DNA of 31,525 nt, taken from a virus. The notes beneath the pieces are model-generated. The model had not been told where the DNA came from. It saw nothing but the letters and a program-made list of their open reading frames with translations, and made no database searches. A program made the position numbers and the translations under genes. This document shows, piece after piece, positions 8,629 through 23,490 of the stretch (position 1 is its first letter; the number at the start of each line of letters is the position of its first letter). Location of the stretch: positions 1 to 31,525 of IMG/VR virus record IMGVR_UViG_3300034375_008145; one strand, given 5' to 3'.

Positions 8629-8657
8629 AGTATATAGCAAATCTAAAGTTTTGTCAA
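8629..8657 (-). promoter_or_regulatory. Sigma70 promoter of the redox/hli operon
   Basis: TTGACA (8652-8657), 17 nt, TATACT (8629-8634). The -35 overlaps the stop codon of the upstream glycosyltransferase gene, so this early-type promoter separates the glycan and redox operons. Confidence 0.85.
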
Positions 8658-9442
8658 GAATTTTGTTCTGGTGGAAGTGTGCCATAGAACGGATCATATT
8701 CAAAGAATGGGTTCCAGTCTTCTATTTGGGACGATGAAGTTTTCCAAAAATCCCAGAGTCCATTATAACTCCCTTTATGGAATACATCAATATGAATGTC
8801 ATGGATATCTGACCCAAGATCAATCTTGTATAGAAACAAAGGAATAGCAAATGTATTTCCAGAGTTATAAATCAAATCATCAGCTACTGCTCTTGGTTTA
8901 ACACCTTGATCCAATTTAAACTTGTCATCTCTACAATGAAGTTTTACGAGTTTCTGAGCATGGTGTCTGGTAATTAAATAGCAGGCAGTCGAAAAATCAT
9001 TTACAAACCTCTTATGGAGTCGCACAGTGACTTGCTGTGGATTGATGATTGCTAATTGAATAACATCAAAGTCATATGGGAGTTTTGATTCAAATTGTTT
9101 CCATGTGAATCCCCAATGTCTAACACACTCAAGATCACAATCATCTTCCATCATGATTAGATAATCATCATCACTGGTCTCAAGCCATTGCTTTAAGGCC
9201 TTAAGATGGGAAGTTGTGCATCCAATTTCACCAGAACTCATATTCTCTGGGTAACGACCTGTGAGAATGCTACTTAGATCATCATCACGACCATCGCAAG
9301 CTGAAATTCTGGTATAGTTTTCAATACCCCAATATTCAAACTGACCCTCCATATACCTACGACGATCTTCCTTATCATCAAGGTTGATATAATAAATCTG
9401 AGGAATTCCCTTCAGTTTAAAAGTTGATTTATTCTTATCCAT
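8654..9442 (-). CDS. Glycosyltransferase family 25 (LPS galactosyltransferase-like)
   Basis: GT25 enzymes transfer galactose or glucose from UDP-sugars to LPS cores or other acceptors. The 262-residue product shows the family landmarks: YYINLD with DRR (residues 17-29), GEIGCTTSHL (71-80) and the metal-binding acidic motif MMEDDCDL (97-104). No membrane segment is seen, consistent with a cytoplasmic enzyme. It is the last gene of the glycan operon, 1 nt after the GT11 gene upstream. Whether it modifies virion proteins or host LPS cannot be told from sequence. Confidence 0.85.
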   Translation of the reverse strand: MDKNKSTFKLKGIPQIYYINLDDKEDRRRYMEGQFEYWGIENYTRISACDGRDDDLSSILTGRYPENMSSGEIGCTTSHLKALKQWLETSDDDYLIMMEDDCDLECVRHWGFTWKQFESKLPYDFDVIQLAIINPQQVTVRLHKRFVNDFSTACYLITRHHAQKLVKLHCRDDKFKLDQGVKPRAVADDLIYNSGNTFAIPLFLYKIDLGSDIHDIHIDVFHKGSYNGLWDFWKTSSSQIEDWNPFFEYDPFYGTLPPEQNS

Positions 9443-9443
9443 A

Positions 9444-10244
9444 TCAATTAGAATCCAATTGCTTCCAGTTTTGAGGGATCAAATCTGTTAGAGATTTATC
9501 TTTATTGTTTGGACCAAACCATTTCATTGGTGCAATAACATCATCGGATCCAGATAGCCATGCACCCCACCATGAGAATGATGAGTTGGCAATGATATGT
9601 GTCTTACACATTGACATTAGGCAAAGATCAAGACGATTGTCATTGGTTTCAGAGATACAGAACCTATCATCCTCAAACAATTTTTGTTCTACACACCATT
9701 GTGGATCATCAGAGAAGACAAGAACCTGACGATCTGGTTCAAATTCATTCAGGGCCTTTTCGTAATAATCCATACCCAAATTATAATGATTGCCACTGTT
9801 CTGAAGATAATCGGTTCTTCTTACATGAAGTGAGATTGGATTATCCCATTGAAAGATTTCTTGGCAGGGAGTACGAATCTCTTCTCGGAAAGTAAAGTCT
9901 TCTCTAATACTTGCTTCAATATGTTTGAAATATTTTTCGGACTGATAGAATCCCCATAAAGAAACATCATTGGGACATTGATTGAAAAGAAGTTCATCAA
10001 ATTCAAATCCCCTTTCTTTTGCAAAGGGAGCATGGCCCATATCCAACATTCCAATATTGGACTTTGGTAGGTGTGGTAGTTCAAAGACTTCAAAGAGTTG
10101 ATGTTCATACCACTCATTTTCAAAATTAGATTTTGGAATACCAAAATCATATCCTCTTCTAGCAGCAATGCCTCTCAATGAGGCATATTGGAACATCTGA
10201 TTTCCAAGTCTACCGAGTTGTCCTAGATGATTAAACGCTAGCAT
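9444..10244 (-). CDS. GT11 fucosyltransferase-like enzyme (first of two)
   Basis: The 266-residue product has the GT11 signatures: GRLGNQMFQY at residues 11-20, HVRRTDY at 140-146 (classic HxRRxDY binding GDP-sugar) and ANSSFSWWGAWL at 219-230. GT11 enzymes transfer L-fucose from GDP-L-fucose in alpha-1,2 linkage. A GDP-L-fucose synthase is not in the window, but a GDP-mannose 3,5-epimerase is, so GDP-L-galactose is a possible donor. It overlaps the upstream galactosyltransferase-like gene by 14 nt and is paralogous to the gene at 11037-11879. Confidence 0.87.
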   Translation of the reverse strand: MLAFNHLGQLGRLGNQMFQYASLRGIAARRGYDFGIPKSNFENEWYEHQLFEVFELPHLPKSNIGMLDMGHAPFAKERGFEFDELLFNQCPNDVSLWGFYQSEKYFKHIEASIREDFTFREEIRTPCQEIFQWDNPISLHVRRTDYLQNSGNHYNLGMDYYEKALNEFEPDRQVLVFSDDPQWCVEQKLFEDDRFCISETNDNRLDLCLMSMCKTHIIANSSFSWWGAWLSGSDDVIAPMKWFGPNNKDKSLTDLIPQNWKQLDSN

Positions 10245-11037
10245 TTCGATTCTTCAGGTATGGTACATTTTGATAATATGAAACTAGTTGTTCCTTTGGA
10301 GTATTTCTAAGTCTCTGCCAGAGTTGGTGATTCTCCATAAACTTTGGATTATTATAATGAGAATTATGAGTTCTGCCATGTTCAAAATGCCAGATAGGGC
10401 CATCAATTCTACCAACTCTATATCCTAAAGCATTGAATCTATAATAGAATTCACAGTCCTCAGCACCCCAGGAAATAAATTCTTCATTCCATAGACCACC
10501 TTTGATGACAGATTCTCTATTATAAAATTGAGTCCATCCAATCGTCGAAGATTCTGTCCTACACTGATCTGAAATGACATCTAAATTGTGGCCAGAGTTA
10601 ATAAATTTCTCAAACACTTCCATGGGATAGTTGACTTGATATTGCCATACCCCACATCCATAAGGATACACAACATCAATCTGATCATTTACTATCGCTT
10701 CATATGCAGATAAATGTGATGAAATTGGATATACAACATCAACATCATGACTACAGACAACTTTAGTATCCGTCATAAGAATGAGATCATTTAAGATTCT
10801 AGTCTTATGAAATAGATTATCAGAACTCTCCTCAAAGACATGAGTCAGATTGTCAGTTGGAACAATCTTTTTAATTTCAGGAAGTGCTCTAAACTTAAAG
10901 GTTGAACGAGTATCAACTTCCTTTACAATTACTTTTGCTTTTGGAAAAGTTCTAAGAAGATAACTTACAGAAGTAATAATATTTTTTAGCCTGTCCTCCG
11001 ATTCAATTCGACAGGGCATGATATATGTTAAGTCCAT
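10231..11037 (-). CDS. Galactosyltransferase-like GT-A glycosyltransferase
   Basis: Residues 1-110 form a nucleotide-binding GT-A half ending in the metal site HDVDVVYP (97-104). Residues 185-200 carry WGAEDCEFYYRF, matching the WGxEDxE motif of the C-terminal beta-1,4-galactosyltransferase domain (Glyco_transf_7C); an HFEHGRTHNS segment follows. Full length 268 residues. UDP-sugar to glycan acceptor is expected, donor uncertain. Its ATG shares one base with the stop of the preceding GT11 gene (TAATG). Confidence 0.8.
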   Translation of the reverse strand: MDLTYIMPCRIESEDRLKNIITSVSYLLRTFPKAKVIVKEVDTRSTFKFRALPEIKKIVPTDNLTHVFEESSDNLFHKTRILNDLILMTDTKVVCSHDVDVVYPISSHLSAYEAIVNDQIDVVYPYGCGVWQYQVNYPMEVFEKFINSGHNLDVISDQCRTESSTIGWTQFYNRESVIKGGLWNEEFISWGAEDCEFYYRFNALGYRVGRIDGPIWHFEHGRTHNSHYNNPKFMENHQLWQRLRNTPKEQLVSYYQNVPYLKNRNASV

Positions 11038-11879
11038 TAAACCTCCATTTCAATCCACGATTCGGGAAGAAGATCACTCATATCGTAATCATTGTATCTA
11101 GGTCCAAACCAAGGCTTGGGAGCAATGACTTTACCTCTACCATTTTGCAACCATGCACCCCACCAACTCATGGAACTATTTGCAATGATAGCACCAGAGC
11201 AAAGACTCATCATACAAAGATCATAATAAGGAACCCATGATTGAACTCTACCATCGTTAGTATCTGATGTATGTTCATACAACATATTACCTTCAGACAT
11301 CAAAAATCGATCATCGGTAAAGTTTGATCTACACCATTCAAGATCATCAGAGAATACAAAAACAGAAACATCATCTGGAAATTCTTTTAGGGCCTTCTCA
11401 TAATATGAGATAGGACAGACAGGATGGTTTTCTGGTTGTCTGACATAATCACCACGACGAACATGAAGAAAAATAGGATTCTCATACTGAGAAATAATTT
11501 CTTCACATGGTTTTAGAATATCTTCTTTGAATGTAAAATCTTTACGGATAATTTCTTCAGCATTTTTAAAATACTTTTCCGTCTGGAAGTAATCATGTAG
11601 ATTTACATTATCTGGGCAACCATTAAAAAAGTTTTCATTGAAATGAAAACACCCAGTGGCTACATTTTGCACACCTTGTTTATATCCAAGGTTTTGTTTG
11701 GTGACGGTGCTCATTTCAAAACAGTCAAAAAGACCATAATTTGAGTCACCATAACTATCGGGTGGTGGAATTACCCAAGAATATCCATTCTGTTTTGCAA
11801 TACCACGAAGGCCTGCATATTGGAACATCTGGTTGCCTAAACGACCATTAGATCCCAATCTATTATAACTAATTGTCAT
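11037..11879 (-). CDS. GT11 fucosyltransferase-like enzyme (second of two)
   Basis: The 280-residue paralog of the gene at 9444-10244 has the same motifs: GRLGNQMFQY (12-21), HVRRGDY (139-145) and ANSSMSWWGAWL near residues 233-244. Two GT11 enzymes flanking a galactosyltransferase-like gene suggest gene duplication with divergence toward different acceptors. It starts in a TGATG-type junction with the cupin gene upstream. Confidence 0.87.
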   Translation of the reverse strand: MTISYNRLGSNGRLGNQMFQYAGLRGIAKQNGYSWVIPPPDSYGDSNYGLFDCFEMSTVTKQNLGYKQGVQNVATGCFHFNENFFNGCPDNVNLHDYFQTEKYFKNAEEIIRKDFTFKEDILKPCEEIISQYENPIFLHVRRGDYVRQPENHPVCPISYYEKALKEFPDDVSVFVFSDDLEWCRSNFTDDRFLMSEGNMLYEHTSDTNDGRVQSWVPYYDLCMMSLCSGAIIANSSMSWWGAWLQNGRGKVIAPKPWFGPRYNDYDMSDLLPESWIEMEV

Positions 11880-12250
11880 CAGTCTCCTGGTTCAATACGA
11901 ATACTATCTTCATCAAAATGCTCGGTAGAAAACTCAAACATTTCAGTATCTTCCATGGCATACATTCTATGCCTCATTCCAGTTGGAACATGAAACTTAT
12001 CACCTTTTTGTAGGATGGTGACATTGGCTAGATCAATACTATCTTTCCAACCATAGTATACCATAAGTTTTCCACTATGTACATAAAAAACTTCGTCCTT
12101 TACATTGTGATAGTGCCAGGAGCACTGTTTTCCTCTGGCAAACCAAAGGATTTTTCCACAATATAAAGAACTATTTGCCAACCATTTTTCATAGCCCCAT
12201 CCCTTTGATACAAATTTAATGGGGTCTTCAGGAGAAGAAGTCATTTGCAT
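11879..12250 (-). CDS. Cupin protein, phosphomannose-isomerase-like
   Basis: A single cupin barrel of 123 residues. The metal-site motif is HYHNVKDEVFYVHSG (His46, His48, Glu53) and the second motif PTGMRHRM supplies His94. The WGYE...W entry strand and this spacing match the small cupins linked to type II mannose-6-phosphate isomerase, so it may isomerise or epimerise a sugar phosphate feeding the GDP-mannose pool. It overlaps the HAD-like gene by 23 nt. Exact reaction unknown. Confidence 0.75.
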   Translation of the reverse strand: MQMTSSPEDPIKFVSKGWGYEKWLANSSLYCGKILWFARGKQCSWHYHNVKDEVFYVHSGKLMVYYGWKDSIDLANVTILQKGDKFHVPTGMRHRMYAMEDTEMFEFSTEHFDEDSIRIEPGD

Positions 12251-12551
12251 TCATTCCTTTATCGTCAATGTAATGATCGCCAGATGGCTTACCTAGATGA
12301 AGTTCATGATACTTGCACCCCCAAGATTTTAATTGGGAGTCCGTAAAGTTGTAGAATTCTTTCTCTGCCAATTCGCGAGAGTTGTCAAATCTACCCATAC
12401 CTCTAGCAGTCAAATAGACAATATAATGCCCTTCATCATATAGTTTATTTATTACCTTGATTCTATCGAATCTAGGAATAGCATGACTATATCGGCCTTC
12501 ACCAGCACCAGGAAAACAGATTGTACCATCAATGTCAATGACATAACGCAT
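12228..12551 (-). CDS. HAD-like sugar phosphatase
   Basis: The 107-residue product starts MRYVIDIDGTIC, the HAD motif I DxDGT with nucleophile and acid Asp. LTARGMGRF gives the motif II Thr region and HYIDDKGMNA the motif IV acidic pair, the pattern of small capsule/LPS-linked HAD phosphatases. A dephosphorylation step in nucleotide-sugar synthesis (such as heptose bisphosphate) would fit the heptose genes in the operon, but this is inference. I chose the ATG at 12551, which overlaps the upstream stop (TGATG); an upstream GTG is less likely. Confidence 0.75.
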   Translation of the reverse strand: MRYVIDIDGTICFPGAGEGRYSHAIPRFDRIKVINKLYDEGHYIVYLTARGMGRFDNSRELAEKEFYNFTDSQLKSWGCKYHELHLGKPSGDHYIDDKGMNANDFFS

Positions 12552-13459
12552 CACTTGAAACACCTCCGATATGCCTCATAGAAGTCAACAGTTTCCTGAG
12601 GAACATACTGCTTCCATAGATTCAGATTGTATAAAAGATCTTGAGTATAACGATAACCGATAATCTCTTTCTCTAAGTTAGTCACAAGATCCTGTACATT
12701 ACGATCTTGATAGACAGATGCTTTGTTATATACAACACTCTGAGGGAACTTAAGTTGTGCGATATAACCACCCCAAATATCATCCATACGACCAACATGA
12801 GGAAGAACAGTATAGTATGGAATCACTTCACGGGCCAAGAAAGTATTCTGACTGTTAAATGGTGAGATACAGTTAGAACCATATGGTTTCTCAACATTGA
12901 ACTTGACACATGGTTTCATTGACAGACGTGCCATTGCATCAATGTCAGGATCACCATCCCATAGATCAGCCTGAATTAGAACCTTGCGTTCATCTTTTCC
13001 AACATATCTTGTATCGCGACGATGTGGAACCTGTTGAATTGGAAATCCACGGTGCCATAGTTCTGGATAGTTTGTAACAGATAGTGGATCGAATACTTCG
13101 GTTGGAGATTCATATAGATCCATCTCAATGGTCTTACCAACTAGAAGATCCTTTCCCCAATCTTCACAGGGGATATTATCATCATCTACGGTTGCAATAA
13201 CATCGGCACCCTGTTCATATGCATAAACAAAACCAATATTCCTACGTTGAATGCTATTCCAACCAATAGTGTCCGATAGCTCTTTCCAACCGTGCTCCTG
13301 CATGTCTGGAGACAGGTACACACAGTTTAATTCTTTGTATAGGTGATGTGGGGTCTTTTTATCTCCAACGACCACCAGGGTCCACCCAGGCATCGCAGAG
13401 AAGTTCATGGTTGCCCGTGTGGGCTTATTGATTGTGGTTGTTACGATAAACTTTTTCAT
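12551..13459 (-). CDS. STELLO/DUF288-like glycosyltransferase
   Basis: The 302-residue product carries the set seen in DUF288/STELLO proteins: VVGDKKTP at residues 30-37, RRNIGF at 72-77 and TVDDDN at 90-95 (DxD metal site), followed by a long C-terminal domain with many aromatic residues. In plants STELLO proteins act around cellulose synthase; phage and bacterial versions are uncharacterised but look like GT-A enzymes. It is 4-nt coupled to the next gene upstream. Confidence 0.72.
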   Translation of the reverse strand: MKKFIVTTTINKPTRATMNFSAMPGWTLVVVGDKKTPHHLYKELNCVYLSPDMQEHGWKELSDTIGWNSIQRRNIGFVYAYEQGADVIATVDDDNIPCEDWGKDLLVGKTIEMDLYESPTEVFDPLSVTNYPELWHRGFPIQQVPHRRDTRYVGKDERKVLIQADLWDGDPDIDAMARLSMKPCVKFNVEKPYGSNCISPFNSQNTFLAREVIPYYTVLPHVGRMDDIWGGYIAQLKFPQSVVYNKASVYQDRNVQDLVTNLEKEIIGYRYTQDLLYNLNLWKQYVPQETVDFYEAYRRCFK

Positions 13460-14334
13460 TTCAGAAACTTCTCAACAAAATGCTTAGTTGTGTAATTATT
13501 CACCGCCTTATTATAAGCGTTTTCTCTCATCTGGTCAAATTCATCATAGTTATTGACCACATGATTTAATATTTTCTTAAGATCTTCTTCGTCCTCAAAA
13601 TACAGAAAATCTTTTTCTGGTTCAAAGAATTTTTCAATCGGATTCCAAGGATCCTTCTGACATAGAATCACACAACGTGCGAATGCTGCTTCAAACATTC
13701 TTGATTTAATCTGAGGGGCCCATCCTTTATCCAGTTGACTAAATGCTGCGTTCAGATCACCATAGGGAAAATTATAATATCGTTCTGCAGTTTGTGGATT
13801 AATATTACACAGACCATGAACAACAGCGACTTTGGTTGCCGCATACATCATCATCTTATCAGCATAAGAACATCTGGGAACATTTCCCATGCTGTAATGT
13901 CCAAACCTAAAATTATATCTTGTGAATACATTCTTGATATAACTTTCCCAAGGAACAGCCTTAGGCATACTACCAAAGTAAGAAACATCAATTATCTTTT
14001 CTGATGCTGGAGGAATCCAATCTTCACTGAATGGGAAGAATACAAACTCTCTATTATCAAAAAGTTCTGCAGTATATGGACAGATTGTAAGAATCTTATC
14101 TGCCACTTCATGGAGTTTTACTTTATCTCCTGGTGCAACACAAAAATTTGGTTCTTCTAGAGTGAGAACCACTTTCTCCTTATCATCATAGCGACCCGAA
14201 TAAAGATCTTTATAAAAGTCGGCCATGAAGAGATAACAATCTCTTGCCACACCTTCATACTTTTCAAAGTTCAGATAATAAAGAGGATCTTCTGTGAGTC
14301 CATTTTCAGGTCTTAAAAAATTTAATACTTTCAT
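13456..14334 (-). CDS. GT-B glycosyltransferase (Glyco_trans_1_2-like)
   Basis: The 292-residue protein looks like a GT-B enzyme. The C-terminal half has SRMFEAAFARCVILCQKDPW followed by an acidic patch and a long helix ending in the tail typical of this family (YTTKHFVEKFL). The N-terminal half, with an FRFGHYSMGNVP segment, lacks recognisable motifs. It would transfer a sugar from a nucleotide donor, identity unknown. It overlaps both neighbours by 4 nt. Confidence 0.65.
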   Translation of the reverse strand: MKVLNFLRPENGLTEDPLYYLNFEKYEGVARDCYLFMADFYKDLYSGRYDDKEKVVLTLEEPNFCVAPGDKVKLHEVADKILTICPYTAELFDNREFVFFPFSEDWIPPASEKIIDVSYFGSMPKAVPWESYIKNVFTRYNFRFGHYSMGNVPRCSYADKMMMYAATKVAVVHGLCNINPQTAERYYNFPYGDLNAAFSQLDKGWAPQIKSRMFEAAFARCVILCQKDPWNPIEKFFEPEKDFLYFEDEEDLKKILNHVVNNYDEFDQMRENAYNKAVNNYTTKHFVEKFLK

Positions 14335-15161
14335 AGTATTTCACCAATATCATTTTTATTTAACTGATATGTACCAGAGTGTTGTACAGATTTGGATGCC
14401 ATCAAAATTGCCTTTTTGATTGATGCTTGAACAGTTTCACCAGATGTATGAAGGACTGCAAAAGTTGCAAGAAAAACATCTCCAGCACCAGTAACATCAT
14501 AGACATCAACTTTAGGTGCAGGAAAATATGAGTTTCCCCACTTTGCACCTGCTTTCCCTAGAGTCACAATAACCTCAGAATTTTCTGACCAGGCTAATGC
14601 TCCCTCTTCTTCAAATTCATTGATCTTTAGAAATGCATTTTCATAGCAAGTAAGATCATTTTTTTTAGAATCAACAAATATCTTTCCCGTATAATTGGAG
14701 CAAATTAGATTTGCCACATCCCAAGGAATTAATCCCTTTTCATAATCAGAAAAGATGATTGCATCATAATAATTCAAACCATTTGGGATTCTTCCACACT
14801 TTTTGTAGAAGTCCGACTCTGTTAGTGGTTGACTTACTAATTTTCCAGAATCAACTCTCAAGAGTTGTTGTCCAGATCTATCATCAATATATCTTTTCTT
14901 AAGCAACTCTTCTGGATTATTTGAAATGAAATCAACTTTACATCCAAAGGCTTCAATGTTTGCTTTAACATTTGTTGCCATTCCAGGAAACACTTTGGTA
15001 CAATTCCAGTCAAAAACAGGAACGGGTGCCTCAGGACTCAGCCTGCGACACTCGCCATAGTGATATTCATCTTGACATGATTCACCGATCAATAATACTC
15101 TCAACGATTTTGGTTGTAGAGTAGTCACCAATTCGGTCGAAGAATCTAACTTCTTTTGCAT
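14331..15161 (-). CDS. rfaE1: HldE N-domain-like heptose-phosphate kinase (PfkB family)
   Basis: PfkB-family kinase of up to 276 residues. RRLSPEAPVPVF (39-50), the hallmark of D-glycero-D-manno-heptose-7-phosphate 1-kinases, and the ATP/anion-hole motif DVTGAGDVF (about 217-225) are both present. This is the first half of the bifunctional HldE that makes ADP-heptose for LPS; here it is separate from the nucleotidyltransferase just upstream. The ATG at 15161 overlaps that gene by 80 nt; a TTG or GTG start nearer 15104-15130 would shorten the overlap and cannot be excluded. Confidence 0.83.
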   Translation of the reverse strand: MQKKLDSSTELVTTLQPKSLRVLLIGESCQDEYHYGECRRLSPEAPVPVFDWNCTKVFPGMATNVKANIEAFGCKVDFISNNPEELLKKRYIDDRSGQQLLRVDSGKLVSQPLTESDFYKKCGRIPNGLNYYDAIIFSDYEKGLIPWDVANLICSNYTGKIFVDSKKNDLTCYENAFLKINEFEEEGALAWSENSEVIVTLGKAGAKWGNSYFPAPKVDVYDVTGAGDVFLATFAVLHTSGETVQASIKKAILMASKSVQHSGTYQLNKNDIGEIL

Positions 15162-15492
15162 AATCAGAACCTACTACTTCCTTACCTTTCCAATCAGATC
15201 CAACCATCATTATATCAGGTTTTATCCGTTTTACAATATCTTGTAATTCTTCTTTGCTATCAAAAACGATAACTTCATCTATGTATCGAATTGATTCGAG
15301 GATAATTTTACGATTCAAGACTGGGTTTATTGGTCTGGAAATACCCTTCATTTCTTTGATTTTTCTGTCAGAGTCAATAGCAACAATTAACTTATCACCA
15401 AGACTTCTTGCAGTTTGAAACATTTTGATGTGTCCTGGATGAAGCAGATCAAAACATCCATTCACAAAGATAACTTTTGGTTTTAGTTTCAT
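15082..15492 (-). CDS. rfaE2: HldE C-domain-like nucleotidyltransferase
   Basis: Cytidylyltransferase-fold enzyme of 136 residues with NGCFDLLHPGH (11-21, HxGH catalytic) and a C-terminal GDYSTTKIVESI matching the STT nucleotide-binding motif. With the adjacent kinase it forms a split HldE that would make ADP-D-glycero-heptose. TagD-type enzymes (CDP-glycerol synthesis) share this fold, and segment IRYIDEVI resembles them, but the kinase partner favours heptose. Confidence 0.83.
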   Translation of the reverse strand: MKLKPKVIFVNGCFDLLHPGHIKMFQTARSLGDKLIVAIDSDRKIKEMKGISRPINPVLNRKIILESIRYIDEVIVFDSKEELQDIVKRIKPDIMMVGSDWKGKEVVGSDYAKEVRFFDRIGDYSTTKIVESIIDR

Positions 15493-15983
15493 TTCTCAGC
15501 CATTACCATGAATGCATTGTTCAAGTCTACACCAGATACGAAAATATTTTTATATCCACGATCAAACATATAAGCCTGAATAATTTCAGGAGTGAATACA
15601 TGCTTATGCTTATAATTATTCCAAGGTCTCCAATATCTTTGACTGAAGTCTGGAAGATATAAGAACAGAGTTCCACCAGTCTTTAGTCTTTCATACCAAT
15701 AGTCCATGGTGGCAACCCAATCGGGAACATGTTCCAAACAATGGCTAGAAAAAATATAATCTGGACGAACACCTTCAGGAAGATGATTAGCATCCCATGG
15801 ATCATCAAAGTCAATGTCGATAGGTTGGGCATTTGGGAAAGCCCATTCTTTTTTCATACAACCAATATCATATCCCAGTCCTTTACAAACATGTAGTGCA
15901 AATGGAATAGCAAATTGAGATGCATTTCCTTCAGTTTGAAACTTAGGATACCATTTTTTTTGAAATTCAATAGTTTCGATCAT
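15489..15983 (-). CDS. SAM-dependent methyltransferase
   Basis: The 164-residue product fits a compact class I methyltransferase. GYDIGC near residue 37 replaces the usual GxGxG loop, acidic IDIDFDD follows, and SSHCLEHVPDW near residues 79-89 matches the type 11 methyltransferase signature (SxxxLEHV). The acceptor is unknown; sugar or glycan methylation is likely from context. It overlaps both neighbours by 4 nt. Confidence 0.75.
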   Translation of the reverse strand: MIETIEFQKKWYPKFQTEGNASQFAIPFALHVCKGLGYDIGCMKKEWAFPNAQPIDIDFDDPWDANHLPEGVRPDYIFSSHCLEHVPDWVATMDYWYERLKTGGTLFLYLPDFSQRYWRPWNNYKHKHVFTPEIIQAYMFDRGYKNIFVSGVDLNNAFMVMAEK

Positions 15984-16741
15984 TGATATCTCCAGGGTAA
16001 ATTAAATAGATAACGAACTTGTGACCAATCTCCCCATCTGTGCCAGAGGAACAAAGGTTTCTTTGACATAGTATCAAAGAGTTGAGGCGATTCAAGAAGA
16101 TAATTGATTGCTGTTTCAATCATGAATACAGCTGATGCTCTTTCAAAAACCATGCACCAGTCAAAGAGAGAATATCCAGGAATGATTTGATTCTCAACCA
16201 CTTTATATCCACCATAACTCTGAGAGTCTGCAGGAATATGTGGAAAGAATTCTAACTTTGGACGTGTACACCACAGACGATTCACGTATACAAACTCATC
16301 ATCATCCTTTAATCCAAGGACATTATAGTATAGTTCTTTTTCTTTTTCAATATTTCTATTGAAATCAATATACTCTCTCCAGTCTTTCCAATCAAGGCCT
16401 AGATTATCATACTTACCTTTCATGATTGGGTGATAATCACCAAATCCTTGAAAGAAGAATAAATCGTCCTCCATTTTGGTTGGTGCCCCATGAATATATC
16501 GTTCCTTATATGGAAACTGACAGGACTCTGGGATTGGTTGTGTACTTCCATTTACTGGATTCTCATCATCACCCCAGGAAACAAACTCAAAATGCGGAAT
16601 ATAATCCTTTAACCATTTGAATTCATGAATGACAGGCCAATATACTTTATATCCAAGTTCATTTTGAATATAATGTGCCCCTTTTTGTAGGAAAAGAATA
16701 TCCCCAAGACCACATGGTTGATAAATTAATCCTGTTTTCAT
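15980..16741 (-). CDS. GT9-like (heptosyltransferase-fold) protein A
   Basis: The 253-residue product begins with a Gly-rich loop CGLGDILFLQKGAHY, where GT9 heptosyltransferases carry the GD motif of the N-terminal Rossmann domain. The C-terminal segment YSLFDWCMVFERASAVFMIE and the following helix (INYLLES) match the donor-binding region of that fold. It is a tandem paralog of the next gene upstream. Next to split HldE genes, transfer of heptose from ADP-heptose is the natural hypothesis; no experiment is known to me. Confidence 0.6.
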   Translation of the reverse strand: MKTGLIYQPCGLGDILFLQKGAHYIQNELGYKVYWPVIHEFKWLKDYIPHFEFVSWGDDENPVNGSTQPIPESCQFPYKERYIHGAPTKMEDDLFFFQGFGDYHPIMKGKYDNLGLDWKDWREYIDFNRNIEKEKELYYNVLGLKDDDEFVYVNRLWCTRPKLEFFPHIPADSQSYGGYKVVENQIIPGYSLFDWCMVFERASAVFMIETAINYLLESPQLFDTMSKKPLFLWHRWGDWSQVRYLFNLPWRYQ

Positions 16742-17460
16742 TCTAACTCCTGAGGAACTTTTTCACGCCACAACCATCTCTCATAATCTACCCATTGCCA
16801 AGGTGCATTGAATAGTTTTCCAACACATTCCTCTGTATTTTTGTAATGTCTTGGGTGACAGATAAGTGTATCTGCTTTGATATTAAGAGTGTCTACAATA
16901 TAATTTAGGCAGGTATCTACAATGTGAATTTGCTCTGCATTTTCAAGAATCCAACACCAATCAAATACGCTTGGAGTTAGATCTGTATCCATCCAAATGA
17001 CTTTCCCATCATAATCTTCTGGAATACTTAACTCAACACCTTCATGTGGTTTACGAAAACTGTACCACTTGTTTGCAAAAATAAATGGTTCACCATCTTT
17101 GATACCCAACCTTTCTTTTAGTTGATTCTCTCTTTCATGATCACGTTTATATGTAAAATAATCTCTCCAATCATACCAACCAACACCAGAAGAAGCATAC
17201 TTTGATGTCATGATGTCAGCAGAACCATTTGGTTTTGGTTGATTGGAACAATCATATAACATGACATTTTCTGTGGGAAGATCGATGTTAGGCCCACATA
17301 CAACTTCATTGGTGATTAATTGATTGACTCCAGAATTCCACATTTCATGTGTGACTGGATGATATACATTGTAACTTTTAGAAAGATCTTTACAAAGTTT
17401 CTGAATAAAAAAGATGTCCCCCAGCCCACCTTGCTGGAGAACAATTACATTTGCTTTCAT
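16738..17460 (-). CDS. GT9-like (heptosyltransferase-fold) protein B
   Basis: A 240-residue paralog of the gene at 15980-16741 with the same architecture: GGLGDIFFIQKL loop at residues 11-22, a middle DWRDYF segment, and VFDWCWILENAEQIHIVD plus LNYIVDTL near the C-terminus. The two share about 4 nt at the junction. Duplicated heptosyltransferase-like genes could add successive heptoses, as WaaC/WaaF do in LPS. Assignment is by motif pattern, with modest confidence. Confidence 0.6.
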   Translation of the reverse strand: MKANVIVLQQGGLGDIFFIQKLCKDLSKSYNVYHPVTHEMWNSGVNQLITNEVVCGPNIDLPTENVMLYDCSNQPKPNGSADIMTSKYASSGVGWYDWRDYFTYKRDHERENQLKERLGIKDGEPFIFANKWYSFRKPHEGVELSIPEDYDGKVIWMDTDLTPSVFDWCWILENAEQIHIVDTCLNYIVDTLNIKADTLICHPRHYKNTEECVGKLFNAPWQWVDYERWLWREKVPQELE

Positions 17461-18086
17461 AGTTGAGCAATTTCTACAATTTGTTCTTCCGTAGTACCAA
17501 TTGGGAATGCTAGGAGATATCCTTGATCAGCAAGATGTTCAATGAGAACATGAGTATCACCAATAATCTCTTCTACAAAATCATACCCATCGGCACCATA
17601 CAGTTTCCTTTGGGCCCAGTTACCTGCTGTGAATTCGCGATCAACATAGATTCTTAGGTCATCCATAAAGATCACATCTTTAGATAGATCTCTGTTTTCC
17701 TTCATGATACGGAGTTCTTTCTCCATAGGAAGACGCTTATCAATGTCTGGTTCTTCACCATATCCTGCAGGGCCATAATCAGCACCAGGAAAATGTGCAT
17801 CTAACCAAAAGAGGGTGGGAGAATCATCCAGGTCACTCAGAACCTCTGCAAAACGATCCTCTGTATATCCCTTATACAGATGAACGTAATCGAGTCCATC
17901 ATATTTTTTTTCTAGATTCTCGTAGAGTTCATCATCTAGCTCTACACCATATGAATTATCTACCATTTCGGTGAGTAGAATTTTATCCATACTAGAACCG
18001 TCACCAGTTCCACTCTCAACAAAGTTTTTGATATTAAATGCCTCAAGCATTTGTTTTAGTTTGACTGGATGATTAATTTGTCCCAT
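17457..18086 (-). CDS. Class I methyltransferase-like protein (TylF/FkbM-type)
   Basis: The 209-residue product has FVESGTGDGSS (motif I, SAM-binding) near residue 24, an acidic GVELDDELY strand (motif II) and a catalytic-type LFWLDAHFPGADY region near residues 95-107, then VIFMDDLRIY. It resembles macrocin O-methyltransferase (TylF)/FkbM enzymes that methylate sugar hydroxyls. I chose the ATG at 18086, two nt after the upstream stop, over a TTG at 18095. Confidence 0.72.
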   Translation of the reverse strand: MGQINHPVKLKQMLEAFNIKNFVESGTGDGSSMDKILLTEMVDNSYGVELDDELYENLEKKYDGLDYVHLYKGYTEDRFAEVLSDLDDSPTLFWLDAHFPGADYGPAGYGEEPDIDKRLPMEKELRIMKENRDLSKDVIFMDDLRIYVDREFTAGNWAQRKLYGADGYDFVEEIIGDTHVLIEHLADQGYLLAFPIGTTEEQIVEIAQL

Positions 18087-18088
18087 GA

Positions 18089-18892
18089 TTAGCAAAAATA
18101 AGTAAGGTAGATAAAGTCTTCTAGGACTTCCATTTTTTTAGCAATCTCTAGATTATCTTTGATTGCTTCCATTTTACTGTGATAGAGTTCGTCTGAAATA
18201 TAGAACTCATCAGTAAGATCAATTATACCATCTTTATTGAAATATTTTCCAATATCAGGAGCTCCAAGATAAACTGGAATAGTTCCTGTGGCAAAACAAT
18301 CTAGAAGTTTTTCAGTGAAATAGGTTTCATATTGTCCATTCTCAATCGCAACTGAGAACATGTAGTCACATAGTCCTTCTTCTTTGTGAAGGATTTCGTT
18401 GAATCCCCGACCATAAAGATCAACCTGATCTTTTAGCCTTTCAACCCATTCAAGACGAGTTGCATGTCCTTTGCACATTCTTTTATTAGATGCGATCATA
18501 GAAATCATTTTTGATTTCTCATAAATCTTGGGTTCTTTAATCCAGAAACCCTGTGCGGGACACCACTTGAACTTTGGATCAATTGCAAGCAACTCTTGAT
18601 TGTGAGTAAAGATTGCATCAAATGTATCCAGATATTGTTTTGGATTGATCTTTACTGCATCCACAATTTGTGGTGTAATATATCGTGACTCTAGGAGCCA
18701 AGCGTACTTTGGTCCTGGTTTTGGATCTATCCATGCCCAAGGGAGAGTGCTATCAATATAAAATGTAGCCTCTCCACCATCCTTTACCCATTCAACATAT
18801 TTCGATTCTTTACCATGAACGGAATATCCTTTATTACCATTTGTTAAATGGGTAAAAGTATCTCCTACAAGATTAAACTTTACGCGCTGCAT
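18089..18892 (-). CDS. GT10 alpha-1,3-fucosyltransferase-like enzyme
   Basis: The 267-residue product carries the GT10 signature: FSVAIENGQYETYFTEKLLD followed by CFATGTIPVYLGAPDIGKYF. This region binds GDP-fucose. It also has a WAWIDPKPGPK stretch and a basic patch (NKRMCKGHATR). The ATG at 18892 (MQRVKFNLVG) gives a 20-nt overlap with the epimerase gene and is preferred over an extension to 18934 inside that gene. Placed next to a GDP-mannose 3,5-epimerase, GDP-L-galactose is a possible donor. Confidence 0.85.
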   Translation of the reverse strand: MQRVKFNLVGDTFTHLTNGNKGYSVHGKESKYVEWVKDGGEATFYIDSTLPWAWIDPKPGPKYAWLLESRYITPQIVDAVKINPKQYLDTFDAIFTHNQELLAIDPKFKWCPAQGFWIKEPKIYEKSKMISMIASNKRMCKGHATRLEWVERLKDQVDLYGRGFNEILHKEEGLCDYMFSVAIENGQYETYFTEKLLDCFATGTIPVYLGAPDIGKYFNKDGIIDLTDEFYISDELYHSKMEAIKDNLEIAKKMEVLEDFIYLTYFC

Positions 18893-19970
18893 TAATTTGC
18901 TCCTCAATCCACTCATATGTCTTACGGATGCCATCTTCTAGAGTCTGAGAGTAATCCCAATCAAGTTTTTCACGAATCAGATCGTTATTGGAATTACGAC
19001 CACGTACACCCTGAGGAGCATCGAGTTTGTAAATCTTCTGAACGACCTTACCAGAAACCTTGGCCGCAGTCTCAACCAGTTGATTGATAGTCACCATTTC
19101 TTCTGAGCCAATGTTCACTGGTCCCATAAAGTCTGAGTCCATCAATCTTCGAGTTGCTTCAATGCATTCGTCAATGTACAAGAAGGAACGAGTCTGTAGA
19201 CCATCTCCCCACACTTCGATAGCTCCACCTGTCTCTGGTAGGTAAGCAACCTTACGGCTGATTGCAGCTGGCGCTTTCTCTCTTCCACCGTCCCAGGTCC
19301 CTTCAGGGCCAAAGATATTGTGATAGCGAGCAATCCGAACAGGAATGCCGTGGTTGCGATTGTAGGCAAGATAGAGACGCTCACTGAAAAGTTTCTCCCA
19401 TCCATACTCAGAGTCGGGGTTTGCTGGATATGCTGAATCTTCACGGCAATCGGGATTATCGGGGTCTAGTTGATTGTGTTCTGGATACATGCAAGCAGAA
19501 CCAGAATAGAAGATCTTGGTAGGTTGATCTAGAGCAGGACGAACACACTCATGATTTGCAGGTTCCCCATCGAAAGTTTCATTGAGCTTACGAACTTCCT
19601 CAAGAACATTCAAATTGATGCTACATGAGTTGTGCATGATGTCTGCATCGTTCTCTCCAGTGAAAACAAAACCTGCACCGCCCATATCAGCAGCAAACTG
19701 ATAGATCTCATCAAAAGGACGAATAGCACGATAAGGTACTGAATTATAGAAATTCCCCAACTCACCTTTGAACTGGATTACACGACGCACAAAATTTGCA
19801 TCACGAAGATCACCCTGCACAAACTCATCAGCAGATGAATCAGAGAACTCAGGATATTTAAGATCTACACCACGAACCCAATATCCTTCGGACTTGAGTC
19901 GTTTGACCATGTGACTACCAATAAATCCACCTGCACCAAGAACCAGTGCAGTTTTTGTATTCTCAAACAT
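18873..19970 (-). CDS. GDP-mannose 3,5-epimerase (plant GME-like)
   Basis: An NAD(P)-binding extended SDR of 365 residues with GAGGFIG at residues 12-18. The match to plant GDP-mannose 3,5-epimerase is striking: FAADMGGAGF (92-101), SGSACMYPE (156-164, with the acid/base Cys), YGWEK (189-193, Tyr/Lys), GGREKAPAA (228-236, Lys), WGDGLQTRSFLYIDEC (254-269) and GVRGRNSNND (321-330). The enzyme makes GDP-L-galactose (and GDP-L-gulose) from GDP-mannose. It is the promoter-proximal gene of the glycan operon. Confidence 0.93.
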   Translation of the reverse strand: MFENTKTALVLGAGGFIGSHMVKRLKSEGYWVRGVDLKYPEFSDSSADEFVQGDLRDANFVRRVIQFKGELGNFYNSVPYRAIRPFDEIYQFAADMGGAGFVFTGENDADIMHNSCSINLNVLEEVRKLNETFDGEPANHECVRPALDQPTKIFYSGSACMYPEHNQLDPDNPDCREDSAYPANPDSEYGWEKLFSERLYLAYNRNHGIPVRIARYHNIFGPEGTWDGGREKAPAAISRKVAYLPETGGAIEVWGDGLQTRSFLYIDECIEATRRLMDSDFMGPVNIGSEEMVTINQLVETAAKVSGKVVQKIYKLDAPQGVRGRNSNNDLIREKLDWDYSQTLEDGIRKTYEWIEEQINAARKV

Positions 19971-20853: not shown

Positions 20854-21417
20854 TCAGAAATTAAACAGTGTAGAGATATTGAAAGAAATTGTACATCTTT
20901 CTTTCTTTGAAGGAATTACATAGTGAAGTAGATTTGCTGGAAAAATTATTACTGTTCCCTCTTTCATTTCTTTGGTATCAATTTCCTTGTGCAAATAAAA
21001 CATTTGCGATAGGTCAGTAAACATGGTATTGTTCACTTCGTTAATATCCAATAGATATGCGGCAGAAAATGTTGTAGAAGTATTTTGATGAGTATGTGCT
21101 TCTTGATATCCACCCTCTGGATAATAATTCCACCAAATATCTTCAAGATGGCTTTCGTAAGGTGGTATTGCTAATTCAACCTCCGAAAACATTTCATCCA
21201 AAGGTTTCCATACAATAGAATCTAGAATCCAATCTTCTCTTATAAAATCATTTGAATATTTAATGGAAGTATAAACATAACTCTTCCAATGTATTGTGTA
21301 GTCTTCTTTATTTTCATTATAAAGATCTTTGATTTGCGGAAGAAGATAATCTTTAATTTCTTTGTGGTTTGGAACCTCAGTCCAAAAAATAAAAGGAGCG
21401 TTAAATTTTTTATGCAT
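20854..21417 (-). CDS. 2-oxoglutarate/Fe(II) oxygenase (2OG-FeII_Oxy_5-like)
   Basis: Such enzymes hydroxylate proteins, nucleic acids or small molecules. The 187-residue product shows the double-stranded beta-helix landmarks: GGYQEAHTHQNTSTTFSAAY with His108/His110 as candidate iron ligands, distal His165 in IIFPANLLHYVIPS, and Arg174 in KKERCTISFNI as the 2OG-binding Arg. This spacing fits PF13759 members common in cyanophages; their substrates are unknown. Confidence 0.8.
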   Translation of the reverse strand: MHKKFNAPFIFWTEVPNHKEIKDYLLPQIKDLYNENKEDYTIHWKSYVYTSIKYSNDFIREDWILDSIVWKPLDEMFSEVELAIPPYESHLEDIWWNYYPEGGYQEAHTHQNTSTTFSAAYLLDINEVNNTMFTDLSQMFYLHKEIDTKEMKEGTVIIFPANLLHYVIPSKKERCTISFNISTLFNF

Positions 21418-23170: not shown

Positions 23171-23244
23171 AGCCAACTAACGGACTTGAACCGTTGACCT
23201 GAGCTTTACAAAAACCCTGCTCTATCCAGCTGAGCTAAGTTGGC
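23171..23244 (-). tRNA. tRNA-Thr (TGT)
   Basis: Acceptor GCCAACT/AGTTGGC pairs fully. The D arm is GCTC/GAGC. The anticodon stem GGGTT/AGCTC includes wobble pairs and its loop TTTGTAA gives anticodon TGT (ACA codons). T arm AACGG-TTCAAGT-CCGTT. No encoded CCA. Confidence 0.93.
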
Positions 23245-23247
23245 ATA

Positions 23248-23320
23248 CTCCTCCACCAAGACTCGAACTTGGAACCCCAGAGTTAACAGCTCCGTGCTCT
23301 GCCAATTGAGCTATAGAGGA
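23248..23320 (-). tRNA. tRNA-Asn (GTT)
   Basis: Acceptor TCCTCTA/TGGAGGA, D arm GCTC/GAGC, anticodon stem CGGAG/CTCTG with loop CTGTTAA giving anticodon GTT (AAC/AAT codons), T arm CCAAG-TTCGAGT-CTTGG. It lies 3 nt from tRNA-Thr. Confidence 0.94.
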
Positions 23321-23339
23321 ATAAAATCCCCGAAGGGAA

Positions 23340-23411
23340 AGCGGAGTATCGGAATCGAACCGACGACATCTAACTTGGAAGGATAGCGTTCTACCGCTGA
23401 ACTAACTCCGC
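23340..23411 (-). tRNA. tRNA-Gly (TCC)
   Basis: Acceptor GCGGAGT/ACTCCGC, D arm GTTC/GAAC, anticodon loop CTTCCAA giving TCC (GGA codons), T loop TTCGATT. The anticodon stem CTATC/GTTAG has one T-T mismatch. The 19-nt gap to tRNA-Asn contains a small TCCC-TTCG-GGGA hairpin. Confidence 0.93.
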
Positions 23412-23415
23412 GAGG

Positions 23416-23490
23416 CAGGCAAGGAGGGACTCGAACCCCCGACCAACGCATTAGAAGTGCGTGGCTCTAATCCAACTGAGCTACTTGCCC
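23416..23490 (-). tRNA. tRNA-Arg (TCT)
   Basis: Acceptor GGGCAAG/CTTGCCT (G-T at the end), D arm GCTC/GAGC, anticodon stem ACGCA/TGCGT with loop CTTCTAA giving TCT (AGA codons), T arm GGGGG-TTCGAGT-CCCTC. Its first 10 bases contain the stop codon of the protein gene at 23481-23675. Confidence 0.94.

Follow-up and report, generated by a model that had tools for sequence, protein, structure and literature searches.

A GDP-mannose 3,5-epimerase in a cyanophage glycan cluster and its possible supply of GDP-L-galactose to fucosyltransferase-like enzymes

Described GDP-mannose 3,5-epimerases and the locus under study

In plants, GDP-mannose 3,5-epimerase (GME) serves the ascorbate route, and the chemistry established for its family consists of oxidation, epimerisation and reduction (PMC8787198). 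The same enzyme can feed fucosyltransferases: in the Arabidopsis mutant mur1, L-galactose replaces L-fucose through fucosyltransferases supplied by GME, and both mouse and Arabidopsis fucosyltransferases accept GDP-L-galactose (PMC8787198 section 12). The GME of Methylacidiphilum fumariolicum belongs to the same family (its sequence was left out of our comparison), and ORF123 of cyanophage S-SCSM1 was published in 2022 as a GDP-mannose 3,5-epimerase with GDP-L-galactose as its product (PMC9602691), so that a cyanophage GME and its product are already in print. The passages of that paper covered here do not propose that fucosyltransferases use GDP-L-galactose, and, judged from titles and the beginnings of abstracts, it alone among the papers listed treats GDP-L-galactose in connection with cyanophages. 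Whereas mur1 is a mutant plant, a dedicated viral route of this kind is proposed here for a 31,525-base linear virus DNA of cyanomyovirus type (IMG/VR record IMGVR_UViG_3300034375_008145; ‘the window’ denotes this whole stretch), which carries a GME gene at 18873-19970 on the minus strand, in one cluster with one GT10 and two GT11 fucosyltransferase-like genes.

How does this locus compare with its closest counterparts? Among long matches the best is Synechococcus phage S-T4, which covers 92% of 8.6-24 kb at 88.9% identity, followed by Sf-CH8 and Sf-CH5. The window GME is 65% identical to S-SCSM1 ORF123, a member of the same enzyme family from the same type of phage; S-SCSM1 differs, however, in having gmd and fcl beside its GME. 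With the solved GMEs of Arabidopsis (2c59) and Myrciaria dubia (8sg0/8skb) the window enzyme shares sequence, fold and eight active-site residues, but it is virus-borne, lies in a glycan cluster, is only 47% identical to the Arabidopsis protein and carries two insertions. The Gmd-Fcl clusters of P-SSM2, ACG-2014f and S-CAM7 likewise encode synthesis of an L-sugar donor from GDP-mannose, but that donor is GDP-L-fucose; GT11 is found in the P-SSM2 and ACG-2014f genomes, among the matches listed.

We consider it fairly probable that the window GME is functional and would supply GDP-L-galactose to the co-encoded GT10 and, probably, to one or both GT11 enzymes. Starting from host GDP-D-mannose, oxidation at C4, epimerisation at C5 and C3 and a final reduction would yield GDP-L-galactose together with some GDP-L-gulose. 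The GT10, whose gene overlaps that of the GME, and probably one or both GT11s would then transfer L-galactose, with GDP-L-galactose standing in for GDP-L-fucose since these donors are alike except at C6. The acceptor, likely met in the cytoplasm, would be either a protein of the virion or a host glycan carried on a lipid and subsequently exported by the host.

Identity of the epimerase

The open reading frame (ORF) at 18873-19970 encodes 365 amino acids and is free of internal stops. In a phmmer search of the PDB four chains of Arabidopsis GME come first (best 2c59, E 1.1e-79), followed by the GME 8sg0 (2.6e-77), with the first non-GME enzymes appearing only at about 1e-20. Eight residues are described as key to GME, namely S143, C145, Y174, K178, N203, K217, R243 and R306 in Arabidopsis numbering, and in GDP-fucose synthase His and Lys replace K217 and R306 (PMC8787198 section 5). 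All eight are present in the window protein in a MAFFT alignment, including the two that discriminate GME from GDP-fucose synthase: the triad of extended short-chain dehydrogenases/reductases (SDRs; S143, Y174, K178) corresponds to S158, Y189 and K193, the catalytic acid Cys and base Lys (C145, K217) to C160 and K232, the Cys-acidifying R306 to R325, the diphosphate-binding R243 to R261, and the conserved N203 to N218. The same eight residues recur in 150/150 distinct viral and 66/66 bacterial homologues (66 of 80 bacterial loci yielded a usable ORF), and in the Fcl of S-SCSM1 the two discriminating residues are His and Lys, in agreement with the review. The motif GVRGRNS occupies residues 321-327.

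The structure model (pLDDT 81.4, pTM 0.86, with segments 94-105, 182-186 and 226-228 below 50) gives the same answer, since places 1-14 of a Foldseek search of the PDB are all taken by plant GMEs and the next enzyme is ten orders of magnitude weaker. Two related identities were considered and rejected. GDP-L-fucose synthase (Fcl, also GMER) is disfavoured by a score of 81.5 bits, as opposed to a curated cut-off above 500, and by Lys and Arg where Fcl has His and Lys; UDP-glucose 4-epimerase is disfavoured by 57.5 bits against the galE model (curated, above 262) and by the presence of the extra acid/base Cys/Lys pair. By these comparisons the product is a member of the GME family and looks intact. 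An earlier note on this DNA, which had seen plant-GME motifs in the epimerase, was therefore right on this point, and the alignment to plant GME and to SDR neighbours that it called for places the protein with GME and apart from both Fcl and galE. Because residues, model scores and fold all say GME, GenBank labels such as ‘UDP-glucose 4-epimerase’ on the GMEs of relatives are wrong by the same tests.

The GT10 and GT11 genes

The alpha1,3-fucosyltransferase-like GT10 (18089-18892, minus strand) scores 44.7 bits against PF00852 (cut-off 23.9; E 1.5e-11) and matches the Helicobacter pylori fucosyltransferase 2nzw at E 8.3e-9; common to both is the motif EN...YxTEK, which we take to be involved in donor binding. 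Its start is probably at 18892, as annotated in S-T4, rather than at the first ATG at 18934, which gives a protein of 267 amino acids and an overlap of 20 bases with the end of the GME gene. The two GT11 genes, alpha1,2-fucosyltransferase-like and also on the minus strand, lie at 11037-11879 (PF01531 E 6.3e-26) and 9444-10244 (E 4.5e-24), scoring 91.7 and 85.6 bits where the cut-off is 23.9. Both are canonical in HxRRxDY, presumably the functional motif of the family, which reads HVRRGDY (at residue 139) in the former and HVRRTDY in the latter. Pfam thus bears out the count of one GT10 and two GT11 genes made beforehand, all in the same cluster as the GME.

Have these transferases diverged with their donor? 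GT11 clades track donor type, requiring 13 changes on the tree as opposed to 42 on average over 1000 shuffles. R142 is kept in 87/111 proteins from GME loci versus 46/49 from Gmd/Fcl loci, and Y145 in 71/111 versus 48/49; since the alignment is gapped there, loci contain more than one GT11 and both window proteins are canonical, a residue signature of donor type is suggestive only.

Co-distribution of GME with GT10 and GT11

Among 18 GME-bearing cyanophage records, GT10 occurs in 8, GT11 in 17 and one or the other in 18/18, versus none and one, respectively, among 12 classical cyanomyoviruses hand-picked as GME-less, the single GT11 being that of P-SSM2, which also has gmd and fcl (Fisher p 2e-7, uncorrected for kinship, Sf-CH5/CH8 and some others being near-duplicates). 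The Fcl model matches the GME in all 18 records and nothing in the 11 GME-less phages other than P-SSM2. A GT10 or GT11 stands immediately downstream of GME in 11 of the 18, and across 153 distinct viral GMEs a GT10 follows directly in 24, at 3.7-fold odds over 1205 other cluster genes, again uncorrected for kinship.

Anchoring the search on the transferases or on gmd gives a similar picture. Nearly all GT11-anchored viral contigs of at least 20 kb (30/31) hold GME (23), Gmd/Fcl (5) or both (2), and when short loci are included a donor gene is present in 56/80. GT10 loci, 46 in number, have GME only in 33 cases, Gmd/Fcl only in 3, both in 2 and neither in 8, with GME immediately upstream of the GT10 in 23. 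Of 80 GME loci, 53 have a GT10 or GT11, as do 42/45 of those with at least 6 kb downstream, and 80 gmd-anchored loci contain GME in 4, Fcl in 74 and GT11 in 51. Cyanophage GT10 and GT11 genes travel with GME or with gmd/fcl. Both donor types coexist in 9/80 GT11 loci, several as a gmd-fcl-GME row, so the exclusion of one donor by the other is a tendency only.

A further sample was anchored on ferredoxin (petF): 80 contigs were fetched, of which 42 with at least 9.5 kb upstream were used and 38 dropped. As 10-kb flanks were too short (19 contigs had a transferase without a donor), a whole-record search and 16 further stretches were used instead. A GME or Fcl-like match is present in 33/42 (G293 being counted by its Fcl-like match), and GT10 or GT11 in 29 of these 33. 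Neither donor was seen in the other 9, of which six have a long upstream region without GT10 or GT11, and the short G274, G279 and G292 include two with GT11.

Donor supply by phage and host

No Gmd or Fcl ORF is labelled within the window. At E 1e-3 nothing in the complete genomes of S-T4, Sf-CH8 and Sf-CH5 matches gmd, and the Fcl model picks up one gene in each, the GME itself; the lack of both genes on which the earlier note had built thus extends from the window to three complete relatives. Among the 18 GME-bearing records, gmd exceeds its cut-off in S-SCSM1 only (Bellamy and SynMITS9220M01 stay below it, at about 165 bits versus 415), which also has the only strong Fcl match, of 455 bits and below the cut-off of 500. 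Tandem gmd, fcl and GME genes were also seen in contigs L220-L225, L246, L275-L278 and L004, although in L222, L224, L225 and L246 gmd was unseen in the stretch covered; by their gene content, phages with the full tandem could make both donors.

Does the absence of gmd and fcl from the phage imply an absence of fucose? The note had named gmd and fcl genes elsewhere in the genome or in the host among what would overturn its idea, and here the outcome is divided: the phage relatives lack both, but gmd exceeds the curated cut-off in 165 of 251 genomes sampled from the host family (the one around a Prochlorococcus that carries GME, presumably the Synechococcus/Prochlorococcus family; the search was not directed at WH7803 and WH8102 individually). 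GDP-fucose may therefore often be available from the host, in which fcl was not searched, and the argument from missing phage genes is rejected: with gmd so frequent in the host family, their absence from the phage says little. In contrast, a GME at E 1e-80 or better occurs in 1/251 of the same genomes, namely the centre genome itself, which means that the phage brings an enzyme that the sampled hosts nearly always lack. The L-galactose idea is accordingly plausible and better supported than the note could know, for a different reason than its own.

Alternative explanations

Several observations weigh against a supply of GDP-L-galactose to GT10 and GT11. Besides the frequency of gmd in the host family, S-SCSM1-type phages hold gmd, fcl and GME together; a petF lineage of four contigs (L480-L483) has GME without GT10 or GT11 in the stretch read; and GT11 occurs without any donor gene seen in contig L249 and in the 22.8-kb fragment AG-345-E08, as it does in phage B23 among the matches listed. 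GT11 as a special partner directly after GME was rejected (18/146 versus 171/1205, p 0.61). Finally, 33 of 64 longer ORFs were scanned in the six long donor-less petF contigs without finding any glycosyltransferase family. Apparently these contigs have no glycan cluster at all, so that the ferredoxin sample is not independent evidence of coupling, and the presence of a large glycan cluster is a confounder of the co-distribution as a whole.

It is conceivable, then, that GT10 and GT11 use GDP-L-fucose made by the host and that the GDP-L-galactose from GME serves another transferase of the cluster. The host gmd genes, the GME lineage without these transferases, the unenriched position of GT11 and the canonical HxRRxDY retained in both window GT11s are all in keeping with this alternative, which we nevertheless regard as unlikely, because GT10 stands directly after GME far above the local background, and the sole GT11-bearing phage among the 12 without GME maintains a gmd and fcl of its own that would be needless if host GDP-fucose sufficed. 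Less likely still is that the substrate of GME is another GDP-sugar, for instance GDP-manno-heptose, or that a second SDR at once converts its product to another L-sugar. HldE-like kinase and nucleotidyltransferase genes do lie in the GME cluster, and an SDR of about 281 amino acids that may remodel the GME product follows GME in 18/153 distinct viral GMEs (e.g. L222 2625-3569) and is also found after it in two Prochlorococcus genomes. Yet the active site is identical to that of GME using GDP-mannose, the second SDR is absent beside the window GME, and near cellular GMEs HldE-like domains are rare (domain II in 2/80 loci, domain I in 0/80), whereas GDP-mannose pyrophosphorylase genes lie within 6 kb in 10/80 (two of them confirmed). 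Heptose is, moreover, reported to be missing from the lipopolysaccharide (LPS) of marine Synechococcus WH8102 and CC9311 (passages of PMC4515613).

That the cluster is passive filler DNA of a large cyanophage genome, a possibility raised for such clusters in 2010 (in parts of PMC3037559), is hardly credible. The dN/dS of viral GMEs has a median of 0.11 and a maximum of 0.24 (197 pairs kept of 700 drawn, the rest falling outside dS or length limits), that of 17 cluster genes compared with S-T4 ranges from 0.02 to 0.22, and the active-site residues are invariant. The cluster genes are under purifying selection, which disfavours filler. Provision of GDP-L-galactose to the GT10, and probably to one or both GT11s, is the explanation we prefer.

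Origin and spread of the epimerase gene

‘Plant-like’, as the epimerase had been called at first, is not a distinctive description and is wrong as to origin. The window GME averages about 68% identity to 66 bacterial homologues versus 47%, over 313 columns, to the Arabidopsis protein. Its lineage is marked by two insertions, one around residues 70-85 and one around 130-150, and a plant origin was rejected since a quick tree places viral GMEs inside the bacterial ones and Arabidopsis outside (support 81-97). In that tree, of 105 rows, Prochlorococcus genes L022 and L023 and the SAR11 gene L025 nest among the viral GMEs, with moderate support (81-94, key branches unstarred); virus-to-host transfer into L022 and L023 is possible. 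In these two single-cell genomes, GME, second SDR and GDP-mannose pyrophosphorylase (683 and 691 bits versus a cut-off of 373) follow one another (L022 6010-9422; L023 5932-9415), and these are the two confirmed pyrophosphorylase loci mentioned above. GME is common at least among phages of the window type, being found in 26/42 ferredoxin-neighbour contigs, a sample biased toward relatives of the window.

The pairing with GT11 is not confined to phages, as GT11 directly follows GME in three cellular loci (L063, L035 and L027). Contig L021, from a metagenome-assembled genome labelled Rhodobacteraceae, has a GME close to that of Sf-FS3 with GT10 and GT11 downstream, and is probably a misbinned cyanophage contig.

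Other features of the cluster and the window

The cluster extends along the minus strand from 19970 to about 8654; besides the GME, the GT10 and both GT11s it encodes other glycosyltransferases, HldE-like halves, a cupin and a methyltransferase. Three conserved proteins without a Pfam match (15980-16741, 16738-17460 and 17457-18095) follow the GT10, are kept in S-T4 and Sf-CH8, and have low dN/dS. Beyond them lie the methyltransferase (15489-15983; Methyltransf_23, PF13489 E 8.5e-13) and two overlapping genes for an HldE domain-II-like nucleotidyltransferase (15082-15492; TIGR02199 125 bits, cut-off 181.5) and a domain-I-like sugar kinase (14331-15161; TIGR02198 125.8 bits, cut-off 345), both under their curated cut-offs. 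Next come a glycosyltransferase-like protein (13456-14334; Glyco_trans_1_2, PF13524 E 5.9e-14), a conserved protein with neither Pfam nor PHROGs match whose S-T4 copy is 98% identical (12551-13459), a small protein (12228-12563) with a weak match to TIGR01689 (capsule-biosynthesis phosphatase, E 1.6e-5) and one to phrog_1238 (‘phosphoheptose isomerase’, E 6e-30), and the cupin, a possible sugar isomerase or epimerase (11879-12250; PF07883 E 1.8e-10). Between the two GT11s is a weakly matching glycosyltransferase-like protein (10231-11037; Glyco_transf_7C, PF02709 E 2.1e-5), and a GT25-like glycosyltransferase (8654-9442; PF01755 E 1.4e-14) ends the run.

A crude hydropathy scan found no membrane segment in 19/19 cluster ORFs, while it found up to 5 in one ORF of the S-T4 locus in which psbA and psbD also lie. 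With no membrane protein predicted, neither a flippase nor a ligase is evident in the cluster; this points to an acceptor in the cytoplasm, for example a virion protein, and still leaves room for host glycans.

Elsewhere in the window, all on the minus strand, are a PhotoRC-II RNA element upstream of psbA (2150-2246), four tRNA genes for Thr, Asn, Gly and Arg (23171-23490) and a 2OG-Fe(II) oxygenase-like gene (20854-21417). Oxygenase-like genes of this kind lie within 4 kb upstream of GME in 22/90 loci and 4-8 kb downstream in 0/89 stretches; hydroxylated acceptor sites might be their output. The wcaG RNA element, annotated near GME in S-SCSM1 and S-SCSM2R, has no match in the window at the gathering threshold.

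Implications

What would a second L-sugar donor mean for these phages? A broader picture, which we put forward tentatively and at somewhat less than even confidence, is that Gmd/Fcl and GME lineages represent two interchangeable L-sugar alphabets with which GT10 and GT11 have diverged, that L-galactose is placed on virions or on glycans of the infected cell, perhaps to escape recognition by rival phages or grazers, and that the Prochlorococcus and SAR11 copies may be of viral derivation. By their gene content, many cyanophages may be attaching a sugar beyond the synthetic reach of most of their hosts. Should this hold, L-galactosylated glycans and L-galactose-specific transferases, both of them rare, would have a natural source in marine viruses, and whether the large LPS clusters of cyanophages do anything, as asked in 2010 (in parts of PMC3037559), would become a question for enzyme assays and sugar analysis.
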